A stretch of DNA of 33,619 nt from an uncultured Clostridia bacterium. GTDB taxonomy: Bacteria; Bacillota; Clostridia; Christensenellales; Aristaeellaceae. Below, one piece after another: positions 11,203-25,613 of this stretch. Below the pieces are notes generated by a model. The model saw only the letters and a list, made by a program, of their open reading frames with translations. It searched no databases and was not told where the DNA came from. The stretch is taken from NCBI GenBank assembly GCA_946413245.1, contig CAMKJS010000032.1, forward strand, positions 1-33,619, given 5' to 3'. Position numbers and translations under genes: made by a program. Numbering within the stretch: position 1 is the stretch's first letter; every line of letters starts with the position of its first letter.

Positions 11203-13074
11203 TTATTTGGTCTTCGCGTTTTTGATGACAGACCAGGCCGAGTAGTACTTCGTGCCGTTCACGGTCTTGTAGGCACGAATCCGGACGTAGTAGAGCTTCT
11301 TCGCGGCCAGATCCTTGAGCACCGTTTTGGTTGTTGACGCTTTTTCGATCGTCACCGTCGTGGGCTTGTTAAAGCTCTTCTTCAGGCTGTACTGGATTTC
11401 GTACCCGGTGATGCCGCTGCCCTTTGCCCATTTGACGGTCAGCTGCTTCTTTCCGGCGGTCAGCGAGGAGAGCTTCACGGCCTTGGGCACGATATTGAAC
11501 TTGACGGTCTTCTTGCCGGTGTAGTTGCCCTTGCCGGTGATGGTGATGGTGGCGGTACCGATCTTCTTGTTGTTCTTATAGGCGACGGTGTAGTCCTTGT
11601 CCGCGGTGAGCTTCTTATTGTTATACCTGACCACTACAGCAGGCTTGATGGCCTTGCCGGTATACGCCTGGTCCTTGATGGCGGAAACTTTGGCCTTATC
11701 GAGATTGGGCTTCTCCGCGACGACCTCGACCTTCTGATCGACGATCAGCTGCTTTTCGGGGGCGCCGTCGCCGTCCTCATCCTTCTGCCAGTCATGCAGT
11801 CCGTCGTATTCCGCGGGGTCAGCTTCCTTTACCAGAGCCGCCAGCGCCGGCACCTTGATGACATCCAGCTTCTGAATCCTGTTATCGTGGCAATGGAGAA
11901 TCAGCAGCGCCTTGTTTTTGCTCACATCCAGGGTCTTCAGCTTATTGGACTGGCACGCAATCATCTTCAGCGCGGTGTTCTTGCTCACATCCAGCGCTGT
12001 CAGCCGGTTCACATGGCATTCCAGATGGATCAGCGCCGTGTTCTGGCTCACGTTCAGGGATTTCAGCTGATTCTGGCTGCAGTACAGATGGGTCAGGGCC
12101 GGGTTCCTGCTCAGATCCAGGGTCTTGAGCTGATTCTGTTCGCATTCCAGGTTTTCCAGGGCCGTGTTGTGGCTCAGATCCAGGGCCGTCAGTTGGTTGG
12201 CCCAGCAGTCGAGAACTTTCAGCGCGGTGTTCTGGCTGACATCCAGCGCGGTCAGTTCGTTCTCGCAGCAGTGCAGCTCCTCCAGGGCGGTGTTTTTGCT
12301 GACATCCAGGGAGGTCAGTTTGTTTTTGTTGCAGTAGAGAACTTTCAGCGCGGTAAAGTATTCGATGCCCTGCAGGCTTTCGATGCCGCAATCCGCGCAG
12401 CCCATATCGACCGCTCCGGCGATTTCCTCGTCGCTCAGGAAATCGTCGTCATCCACATCAAAGCATTTGGCGTTCTTCCGGAAGGCTTTGTCCGGGAAGT
12501 TGGTTTCGTCGATCGCGACCCCGGTCGGCACGGGCGCAGTGGGTTCTTCGCCCGGAAGGAAATCCCATTCGCAGACGTATCCGACATTGTCGGATCCCCA
12601 GAAGGACATGCTGTCCCAGGAATTAGCGTCCTCTTCCAGGTCGCCCCAGAGACCGGCATCCCAGCCAGAGCCACCCATGCTCTTGCCCAGAATAATGCAG
12701 TATCCCTGATTCCCGTTGTAATTATCCGGCTCGCTGGAATGAAAATTGGTATAAGTGACTTCTTCCCCCGTGATCCAGCGGTACTCCCCGTCGCCAAAGA
12801 GCTTCATGCCCAGCCAGTAGATGTTTTTGGTATTGGCGATGCTGACCACAAAGCTGTTCTCCTCGGCGTCGGAGATCGTGACGAGATGGCCGCCCAGGAG
12901 GGCGCAGCTGTTCTTCGCGGCGGTCCAGGACTTGGAATTGTCGAAAACGTAATAACTGTGCCCGTTAAAGAACGTCGCGTCTTCCGGAATGCCGGAGGCG
13001 CTTTCCGCCAGGACGGAGGCCGTGGCGAAGAGGAAAAGCAGCATGACAGACAAGACCAGCAGTTTCTTTTTCAT
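11203..13074 (-). CDS. Secreted mosaic protein: C-type lectin, LRR, MBG/YDG-like and Fn3 domains
   Basis: A 623-residue exported protein. The ATG at 13074 follows AAAGGAGAA and starts a clean signal peptide (residues 1-23). An upstream in-frame extension to 13143 has no ribosome site. Residues about 25-180 are a C-type lectin-like domain (SWTAAKNSCALLGGHLVTIS, GEYRWITGE, SSEPDNYNG and a closing GYVCEWDF). Residues about 195-440 are short LRRs of the LDVSKNTAL type, followed by a calcium-loop-like DEDGDGAPE. Residues about 450-530 hold an MBG/YDG-like domain (AYTGKAIKP, YTGKKTVKFNI), and the last 90 residues are an Fn3 domain. The likely role is surface binding to glycans or host or plant material. 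No anchor is seen. Confidence 0.88.
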   Translation of the reverse strand: MKKKLLVLSVMLLFLFATASVLAESASGIPEDATFFNGHSYYVFDNSKSWTAAKNSCALLGGHLVTISDAEENSFVVSIANTKNIYWLGMKLFGDGEYRWITGEEVTYTNFHSSEPDNYNGNQGYCIILGKSMGGSGWDAGLWGDLEEDANSWDSMSFWGSDNVGYVCEWDFLPGEEPTAPVPTGVAIDETNFPDKAFRKNAKCFDVDDDDFLSDEEIAGAVDMGCADCGIESLQGIEYFTALKVLYCNKNKLTSLDVSKNTALEELHCCENELTALDVSQNTALKVLDCWANQLTALDLSHNTALENLECEQNQLKTLDLSRNPALTHLYCSQNQLKSLNVSQNTALIHLECHVNRLTALDVSKNTALKMIACQSNKLKTLDVSKNKALLILHCHDNRIQKLDVIKVPALAALVKEADPAEYDGLHDWQKDEDGDGAPEKQLIVDQKVEVVAEKPNLDKAKVSAIKDQAYTGKAIKPAVVVRYNNKKLTADKDYTVAYKNNKKIGTATITITGKGNYTGKKTVKFNIVPKAVKLSSLTAGKKQLTVKWAKGSGITGYEIQYSLKKSFNKPTTVTIEKASTTKTVLKDLAAKKLYYVRIRAYKTVNGTKYYSAWSVIKNAKTK

Positions 13075-13198
13075 GGTTCTTTTTCTCCTTTCGTTTTTAA
13101 GCCATTTATTCACCGGTAAATTGTTCCGCTTCCGGGACGTCATTACCGGCTTTTTTCGATACGCGCAGTCCGGATTCCTTCCGGCAGACGAAGTTTTT

Positions 13199-23027: not shown

Positions 23028-23080
23028 GTTAACGTGCACGTTTTTGAAGATTATGTAAAATCGTGTGCGTTAAATGGCAT
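23028..23080. repeat. 53-bp palindromic element, left copy
   Basis: GTTAACGTGCACG at 23028-23040 faces CGTGTGCGTTAAA at 23062-23074, an imperfect inverted repeat, followed by TGGCAT. The whole 53 bp matches the reverse complement of 25561-25613 at 46 positions with no gaps. It lies about 80 bp before the DUF2804 promoter. Besides this element, the 22835-23225 gap holds only the promoters of the two divergent genes. Confidence 0.85.
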
Positions 23081-24291: not shown

Positions 24292-25347
24292 TTATGCCTC
24301 CGGTATGTAATTTTCCAGAACAAATTCTTCGAACAGCGGCAGTTCAAACCGTACGACGCCGTATACGTCCCCGTTGATGATTCCCTTCCGGATCAGTCTG
24401 GTGCGATAAGGCGTAAATCCGTTGCTGCTCATGTTCAGGTACGCACGGATTTCGGAAACGCTTCCTCCGGGGTTTTTGGCAATCCCATAAAGCACCCGCC
24501 GGTCTTCCGCGGAAAGTTCCTGCCAGATTTTCTCATAAACATATTCTTCCAGATACTGCTTGTATTCTGCCCGGATTCGGGCAGGATTATTCCGGCATTC
24601 CCATGTGAAATACCCGAGAACCTGGAATGCAAATGAATAGCCCTTTGTTCTTCTGGCCATATCCAGCGCTGATTCCGAATCGAGTTCGAAGATCCGTGCG
24701 TAGCTTTCAGCCATTCTGCCTATGTTCAGCGGCGTCAGCGCGATTCTCGGAGCACGGTACAGAAAAGTCAGCGTCTTTTGATCCTGCAGAGCCCGGACAT
24801 TTTCATACAGGCCTGTCATCAGCAGAAACAGGGGAAGATCCTGCCGTAGAAAGATCTGAAACGCGCTGGCAAACACCTTCATCGAAGGAGTTCCGGATAC
24901 TTCGTCTATGGCAATCAGCACCTTTTTATGATGCCGTTTCAGACTGGTCAGCATTCTCGTCAGCGCGACCTCAATATCATGTTCCGGTTCTGTTCCTTCA
25001 ATCTGTACCCCCAGGCCGAACGCGGAAAGGTTGATTTTGGCTGCCGTAAAGATCTCCTTCAGGGTATTCTCGCTGCTCAGTTTGGCAGCCAGATTCTGCA
25101 GCAGATCCCGGTCTGGATTCAGTTCAACCACAACCCAGTCTTTCTCGCTCTGAAACCGCTTGCACACAGAGGTCATAAATACGGTTTTTCCGCTTCCCCG
25201 TACGCCTGTAATGATGGTGATATGCTTGCTGGGATGATCGTCTGTAAAGGAACTGACCAGTTCCCCCATCAGCAGGGATCTGGGAATCATCTCATACGGT
25301 TCTCTGCCGAAATCCAGTGTGAACGGATTTTTGATATTCTCTGCCAT
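24292..25347 (-). CDS. AAA ATPase, Orc1/Cdc6-like, with winged-helix C-terminus
   Basis: A 351-residue ATPase. GGAGGAAGG precedes the ATG. Walker A GVRGSGKT is at 48-55, Walker B is KVLIAIDEV, and sensor-like LLMTGLYENV follows. The C-terminal 80 residues (LSAEDRRVLYGIAKNPGGSV, then SEIRAYLNMS, then GVVRFELPLFEEFV) look like a winged helix. This architecture resembles archaeal Cdc6-like proteins and the multicopy bacterial AAA_16 ATPases, and it differs from the product of 8984-10402. A DNA-binding role is plausible. Its promoter region carries four regular 20-bp repeats, a set-up that recalls both autoregulation and iteron-type origin binding. It is a single gene. Confidence 0.85.
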   Translation of the reverse strand: MAENIKNPFTLDFGREPYEMIPRSLLMGELVSSFTDDHPSKHITIITGVRGSGKTVFMTSVCKRFQSEKDWVVVELNPDRDLLQNLAAKLSSENTLKEIFTAAKINLSAFGLGVQIEGTEPEHDIEVALTRMLTSLKRHHKKVLIAIDEVSGTPSMKVFASAFQIFLRQDLPLFLLMTGLYENVRALQDQKTLTFLYRAPRIALTPLNIGRMAESYARIFELDSESALDMARRTKGYSFAFQVLGYFTWECRNNPARIRAEYKQYLEEYVYEKIWQELSAEDRRVLYGIAKNPGGSVSEIRAYLNMSSNGFTPYRTRLIRKGIINGDVYGVVRFELPLFEEFVLENYIPEA

Positions 25348-25383
25348 TTGCTTTCCTTCCTCCCGGCTGATGCGTCTGATTTG

Positions 25384-25490
25384 TTTTACAACTCTTTACA
25401 GTTTATCCGATCTTTTACAACTCTTTACAGTTCGCATAACTTTTTACAACTCTTTACAGTTCAGAATTCATTTTACAACTCTTTACAGTT
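25384..25490. repeat. Four 20-bp direct repeats at an exact 29-bp period
   Basis: TTTTACAACTCTTTACAGTT occurs at 25384-25403, 25413-25432, 25442-25461 and 25471-25490. All four copies are identical, and they are separated by three unrelated 9-bp spacers. The array covers the promoter and leader of the Orc1/Cdc6-like ATPase gene. Such regularity fits repressor or initiator binding sites (iterons) rather than slipped-strand decay. Confidence 0.96.
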
Positions 25491-25497
25491 TTGTCAA
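25470..25497 (-). promoter_or_regulatory. Likely promoter of the Orc1/Cdc6-like ATPase gene, inside the repeat array
   Basis: On the minus strand TTGACA (25497-25492), a 16-bp spacer and TAAAAT (25475-25470) enclose the outermost repeat. The other three repeats then lie in the leader. A protein bound to the array would block initiation. Confidence 0.65.
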
Positions 25498-25560: not shown

Positions 25561-25613
25561 ATGCCATTTAACGCGCACGATTTTGCAAAATCAGCAAAAA
25601 CGTGCGCGTTAAA
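25561..25613. repeat. 53-bp palindromic element, right copy
   Basis: TTTAACGCGCACG (25567-25579) and CGTGCGCGTTAAA (25601-25613) are perfect complements. Extending each arm inward to 20 bp adds only one mismatch. The flanking ATGCCA is shared with the left copy at 23028-23080, which lies in the opposite orientation. The 25348-25691 gap contains this element, the acetyltransferase scar and the 29-bp repeat array. Confidence 0.92.

Follow-up and report, generated by a model that had tools for sequence, protein, structure and literature searches.

Among plasmids, the iteron-autoregulated Rep proteins are a familiar case of proteins that bind direct repeats close to the promoter of their own gene. 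Three further systems bear on the arrangement described below: Orc1-2 of Saccharolobus islandicus, an AAA+ winged-helix regulator, binds a motif on its own promoter (PMC9738581), MalT couples ATP-dependent oligomerization with cooperative promoter binding (PMC10427625) and BldC forms a head-to-tail oligomer on direct repeats (PMC6428758).

The window analysed here, the whole 33,619-nucleotide stretch of contig CAMKJS010000032.1 from an uncultured Clostridia bacterium, encodes on its minus strand an ATPase preceded by an array of direct repeats. With Orc1-2 the locus has in common an ATPase with a winged helix and a motif at the own promoter, the binding here being predicted; Orc1-2, however, is a global DNA-damage regulator with many targets, whereas no other exact paired site was found here, and the ATPase of the window fails the Orc1/Cdc6 model. 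An ATP-dependent oligomer with cooperative promoter binding would be the likeness to MalT, which is a large sensor controlling the maltose system, whereas the protein considered here has 351 residues and appears self-addressed, with its site inside its own promoter. The repeats point one way, are pitched at one turn and vary in copy number, as would fit a head-to-tail oligomer of the BldC kind, but BldC works without an ATPase, is MerR-like and addresses a large regulon through a loose consensus. As with the iteron Rep proteins, direct repeats are located near the promoter of the gene, binding being predicted from covariation in the present case, but the ATPase gene is chromosomal, no replicon is apparent and the protein matches no Rep family in Pfam or NCBIfam. 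Among the matches listed in a literature search of titles and abstract beginnings, with subscription papers and preprints outside its scope, such arrays were not described, and an earlier description may exist.

Results

Four exact copies of the 20-mer TTTTACAACTCTTTACAGTT occupy positions 25384-25490 with a period of 29 bp, separated by three mutually unrelated 9-bp spacers (TATCCGATC, CGCATAACT and CAGAATTCA); the exact coordinates confirm the four identical repeats and the period claimed in an earlier note on this DNA. Read on the minus strand, the direction of the gene, every 20-mer is composed of AACTGTAAAG followed by AGTTGTAAAA, two direct 10-bp half-sites; neither this subdivision nor the overlap of the distal copy with a promoter-like site appears in the earlier note. 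The unit at 25384..25403 is nearest to the ATPase gene and is followed by those at 25413..25432 and 25442..25461, while the distal unit, at 25471..25490, fills the spacer between the -35 and -10 hexamers of a promoter-like site and overlaps its -10 hexamer. The earlier note had extended the array to 25497, which holds up to 25490, whereas 25492-25497 are the minus-strand -35 hexamer. With up to three mismatches allowed, neither a fifth TTTTACAACTCTTTACAGTT nor any match to the reversed control was found in the 3.23-Mb assembly (78.6% complete). The GC content of array and leader (34.7%) is below that of the ATPase gene (50.0%) and of the neighbouring GH3 (65.8%) and DUF2804 (55.1%) genes.

The promoter-like site itself (minus strand, 25470..25497) combines TTGACA (25497-25492), 16 nt and TAAAAT (25475-25470), agrees with 11 of 12 consensus bases and straddles the distal unit. 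One such match against 0.9 expected in shuffled sequences makes it not significant on its own; its designation rests on the consensus match and on a placement conserved among relatives. A -35/-10 pair is located near the start of the array in 50 of 80 loci (any such promoter occurs in 6.5% of shuffled sequences), and in 38 of these 50 the first half-site begins 7 or 8 bp after the start of the -35 hexamer. A likely ribosome-binding site read from the sequence, GGGAGGAAGG (25355..25364, minus strand), precedes the ATG at 25347.

Two further repeat features of the window were observed. Between GH3 and the array, a near-perfect palindrome (TTTAACGCGCACGATTTTGC / GCAAAAACGTGCGCGTTAAA) is found at 25567-25613, and its arm recurs at four other places in the genome with one mismatch each, including 23062-23074 of the window. 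Tandem repeats of 63 bp are located at 11966-12354, inside a minus-strand 646-aa open reading frame (11203-13143).

Homologous loci were collected by a scan of genome contigs, which gave 139 confirmed stretches, the best 80 loci of which, 43-85% identical, were used; a family search contributed L086 and L087, L086 being the same gene as L012. The 80 upstream stretches tested include the window and L086 and exclude L047, L052 and L080. The copy number of a repeated 9-mer was above that in all 60 own shuffles in 70 of these 80 stretches, and the ten below this bar include evident arrays such as those of L007 and L008, the copies of which are too divergent for the measure. The spacing follows a common grammar: as called with a hand-seeded caller, 441 of 514 distances between successive half-sites are 9, 10, 11, 19 or 20 bp, neighbouring distances are most commonly paired as 10/19 (94) and 19/10 (74), and runs of three or more half-sites spaced 9-11 bp apart occur in 48 of the 80 loci. 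Where a full consensus is available, the half-sites are oriented in one direction, with 342 forward versus 40 reverse 7-mers. Compared over five loci of the window clade, the array units are 94% identical and the spacers 34%. The core of the half-site varies by lineage, being TGTAAA in the window clade and CAGTAAA, TTATAAA, TGATAAA, TTATAACC and others elsewhere. In the paralogues L166 and L167, the half-sites (AGTTATA, 11/19) are 11 rather than 10 bp apart within a pair, so that spacing may also contribute to specificity.

Repeats extend beyond the near family. In 29 of 33 new loci with at most 41% identity, a 7-mer occurs three or more times without mismatch within the 140 bp preceding the start, a count made with no shuffle control, and these 7-mers comprise many different sequences. 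Distant relatives are also found on 25 plasmid records, seven of which were inspected for upstream repeats: three, from Pseudobutyrivibrio (ATACTAAAG), Lactobacillus crispatus (AGTAAAATG) and Arthrobacter (TTTCACC), have clear arrays and four do not, those of Collinsella, Protochlamydia and Rhodococcus having two or three repeat copies and that of Microbacterium no convincing upstream repeat. Co-varying repeats at fixed spacing upstream of homologues, as anticipated in the earlier note, are thus a feature of the near family, with 70 of 80 stretches beating all shuffles, while their absence, which it had named as an argument against the idea, applies to some of the distant plasmid relatives. 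On its plasmid, the L. crispatus relative (L230) has in its vicinity an IS110 transposase gene and a toxin gene annotated as PemK/MazF-type.

The ATPase gene (24292..25347, minus strand; P0001, 351 aa) is single copy in the genome of the window (E ≤ 0.001). Its P-loop domain belongs to the Pfam family ATPase_2 (PF01637; 35.2 bits, cut-off 33.2), the match spanning residues 41-151 only, and all 77 relatives match this family at E ≤ 0.01. The same 77 match nSTAND_NTPase5 at E ≤ 0.01, P0001 with 28.4 bits being below the cut-off of 34, and NB-ARC is above its cut-off in the relatives L020 and L048. A C-terminal winged helix is predicted by way of relatives: HTH_24 is matched by L070 at residues 282-326 (26.9 bits, cut-off 21.9) and by 12 of 77 aligned proteins at E ≤ 0.01, whereas P0001 itself gives no Pfam winged-helix match at E ≤ 0.1. 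Together with the covariation presented below, these matches would place the domain at residues 281-326 (codons at 24370..24507, minus strand). The Orc1/Cdc6 identity proposed in the earlier note was rejected, with P0001 scoring 15.3 bits against TIGR02928 (cut-off 181.3) and 3 of 77 relatives matching that model at E ≤ 1e-3, the best at 1.5e-4. No relative was found among solved structures by profile at E ≤ 0.01, and the single-protein search gave 8fnt (E 0.018, residues 37-76). Searched with PADLOC defence models, P0001 had no strong match (best E 7.8e-5, residues 19-87 only); the anti-phage model NF053860 is matched by 7 of 77 relatives (best 1.2e-5), and such defence-model matches are weak and restricted to the P-loop part of the ATPase. 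Values of dN/dS of 0.019-0.082 in ten of ten relative pairs, several of them with high synonymous divergence, point to strong purifying selection.

Among 68 proteins less than 90% identical, the residue at position 312 (codon 24412-24414, minus strand), within the predicted winged helix, follows positions 4-5 of the half-site: Ser accompanies TA (30 of 34) and Asn accompanies AG (17 of 19), Thr is found both at TG (7 of 8) and at GA (3 of 4), and 312 is the top column for this dinucleotide. Position 4 alone is led by columns 9, 338, 263 and 313, which outscore 312, and positions 8-9 by columns 279 and 282, both outside the recognition helix; these higher-scoring columns may be clade effects. 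On a tree built from residues 1-270, which leaves out the winged-helix domain, 8 of the 10 branches with a change of the core also show a change at residue 312 (p 5.9e-8, the best of 343 columns; runner-up 0.001). With random tie-breaks, 312 ranks first in 40 of 40 runs with 6-8 co-changes; when the four hand-registered loci are left out, it leads in 24 of 40 runs, comes second in 11 and takes third place in 5, with 4-5 co-changes of 9, its usual rival then being residue 316 within the same helix.

The relation was followed in 57 new loci, 50 after seven duplicates were dropped, which had been inspected before the scorer was written. Of the new loci, 16 were at least 40% identical and had a core that could be called, and the residue-312 rule was correct in 15 of them; with no limit on identity it was correct in 24 of the 26 scorable loci versus 14 of 26 for the residue of the nearest relative, and where the nearest relative has a different core, residue 312 matched the own core in 10 of 12. 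At the two misses, L164 and L180, the core was called automatically as GA from repeats like TTATGATA or ATATGATA, and the other 24 of the 50 have no callable core among the four types.

Searched for as exact paired half-sites, with looser or single sites outside the scope of the count, the motif is a private address: all 29 occurrences in 11 genomes are directly upstream of such ATPase genes, and the scattering of the repeats away from them that the earlier note had considered was not seen. Four of four are at the ATPase gene in the genome of the window, 21 of 21 at such genes in eight genomes with CAGTAAA-type copies (20 at the selecting gene, one at the same-type paralogue L152) and four of four at the ATPase gene in two genomes with GTTGTAAA-type copies; reversed-pattern controls across these searches gave two matches in total. 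The 39 genomes of 40 loci encode between 1 and 11 ATPase matches each at E ≤ 1e-20, G216 having ten full-length paralogues and one fragment. A repeat could be called by script for nine of its paralogues, and the top word is different in each, although the pair L167/L176 cross-matches. Over all co-resident paralogue pairs, 4 of 102 share a repeat against 8.7 expected (identity-matched pairs; P 0.04, the pairs not being independent), which weakly suggests that co-resident paralogues avoid cross-talk.

Discussion

As the repeats change in step with a residue of the predicted DNA-reading helix, they most likely constitute the docking array of the encoded protein itself. We consider it probable that the array is a private operator of the ATPase, on the promoter of which an oligomer of the protein lines up to autoregulate by repression; of the options listed in the earlier note, the autoregulatory operator is the one supported by the position of the array in the apparent own promoter and by the covariation of half-site and protein. 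Computation establishes the array with its position, the spacing grammar common to the family, the covariation with residue 312 and the absence of further exact paired sites from the genomes searched; direct binding, oligomerization and repression rather than activation are what we infer from these observations. The C-terminal winged helix would read one 10-bp half-site per turn of DNA and, with one half-site per turn in uniform orientation, several ATPase subunits could line up along the array, presumably joined by the ATPase domain, which would tie assembly to the nucleotide state. As the first half-site pair takes up the -10 box and the spacer between it and the -35 hexamer, and the remaining half-sites are in the leader, a filled array would block RNA polymerase, and the outcome would be cooperative self-repression set by the level of the ATPase or the state of ATP. 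As to what the ATPase does for the cell, an accessory sensor or a defence-type role seems to us the likeliest candidate.

The sign of regulation might be the opposite, an oligomer on the array activating its own promoter and creating a bistable switch, for which the STAND ATPase MalT, an activator that acts as a cooperative oligomer at promoters (PMC10427625), provides a model. The first pair overlaps the -10 hexamer, however, and most half-sites are downstream of the predicted transcription start, so that repression is the likelier sign and autoactivation appears unlikely.

It is highly improbable that the array is the end or target site of a mobile element which moves the gene, even though the distribution of the gene invites the idea. 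The ATPase gene is solitary, patchy in distribution and gut-bacterial: at E ≤ 1e-20 it is present in 3 of 150 genomes of the family and 4 of 299 of the phylum, the genome of the window counted in each, and relatives 55-56% identical are encoded by Enterorhabdus sp. P55 (L022) and Atopobium fossor (L027), both members of the Actinomycetota. In most pairs of relatives at different sites, array and gene are the sole shared segment, from about the first half-site or the -35 hexamer to about the stop codon; for L010 and the window, L043/L045 and L045/L056 the alignment is limited to the coding part. Flanking repeats of the unit are clear (score ≥ 22) in 6 of 75 units and exceed all 20 own controls in 15 of 75, but absent or weak at the other loci and thus rejected as a general feature. 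A matching downstream array is absent from the window, the half-site is locked to the promoter and covaries with the winged helix, and one Mutator transposase is present among the 25 families listed for 99 neighbours, which represent 145 Pfam families, the commonest in four of them. No neighbour family is constant around the ATPase genes: among the 76 downstream and 73 upstream neighbours from 77 loci, no related cluster is larger than four, and two of those four come from a single shared site; the other clusters are pairs, some of them also from shared sites.

Several observations on neighbourhood and flanks are recorded here in their own right. Downstream neighbours are on the same strand within 100 bp in 32 of 76 cases and converge in 28; as the 32 belong to different families, no operon partner is proposed. 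A clean empty site was not found, the neighbours DUF2804 and GH3 of the window not occurring together in the loci of relatives examined; where L012 has a matching locus in the related genome G180, the ATPase stretch is unaligned and about 0.8 kb of other DNA is present, so that the ends of an insertion are unreadable. L060/L065 (97% identical) are not a clean case of movement, since the downstream flank is partly common too, and L135/L153 of one genome were left out, their about 770 bp of shared upstream DNA reaching to the contig edge and possibly being an assembly effect. Clear direct or inverted flanking repeats, several of them hairpin-like, were noted at L006, L019, L044, L049, L060 and L062, that of L006 comprising 46 bp at -198..-152 and +56..+102. 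No relative of P0001 was found in 50,697 phage records, and none of 56 pattern-matched stretches of viral contigs was confirmed as a relative by alignment search.

Just as improbable as a mobile element is an element of the leader RNA or a site for another host protein. In its favour, most repeats are downstream of the predicted transcription start, but the first pair is upstream of it, no unusual fold was seen (z 0.34), no Rfam family matches the window at gathering score, the repeats covary with the encoded protein and co-resident paralogues have different repeats in 98 of 102 pairs. Least probable of all is an initiator-bound iteron-type origin, the replication-type assembly site of the earlier note: direct repeats do adjoin an ATPase with a predicted winged helix that has distant relatives on plasmids, but the contig is chromosomal with ordinary neighbours and no replicon in the window, the ATPase is not Orc1/Cdc6, the arrays are located in promoters and there are up to ten full-length copies per genome.

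The private operator, in the preferred reading, raises the question why a solitary, patchy gene under strong purifying selection retains an elaborate operator with no other detectable target. A broader interpretation, which we hold tentatively and regard as less probable than its converse, is that of a large family of units that spread horizontally and comprise one gene each, the ATPase assembling in every case on a private, co-evolving array as its sole address; equally tentative are its further elements, that up to ten full-length copies per genome are largely insulated from each other and that the array is a sensing scaffold as well. If true, an ATPase filament, for example, might be lost or grow upon invasion, on damage to DNA or as replication passes, and so trip an effect, and in the pairing of the half-site with residue 312 and nearby residues one would have a simple DNA-recognition code of naturally orthogonal regulators. 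A family for which 'ATP-binding protein' or 'hypothetical protein' has so far been the whole annotation becomes a testable system, in which a putatively self-addressed DNA-binding ATPase comes with a protein-DNA code that can be read and with numerous natural variants that differ in specificity.
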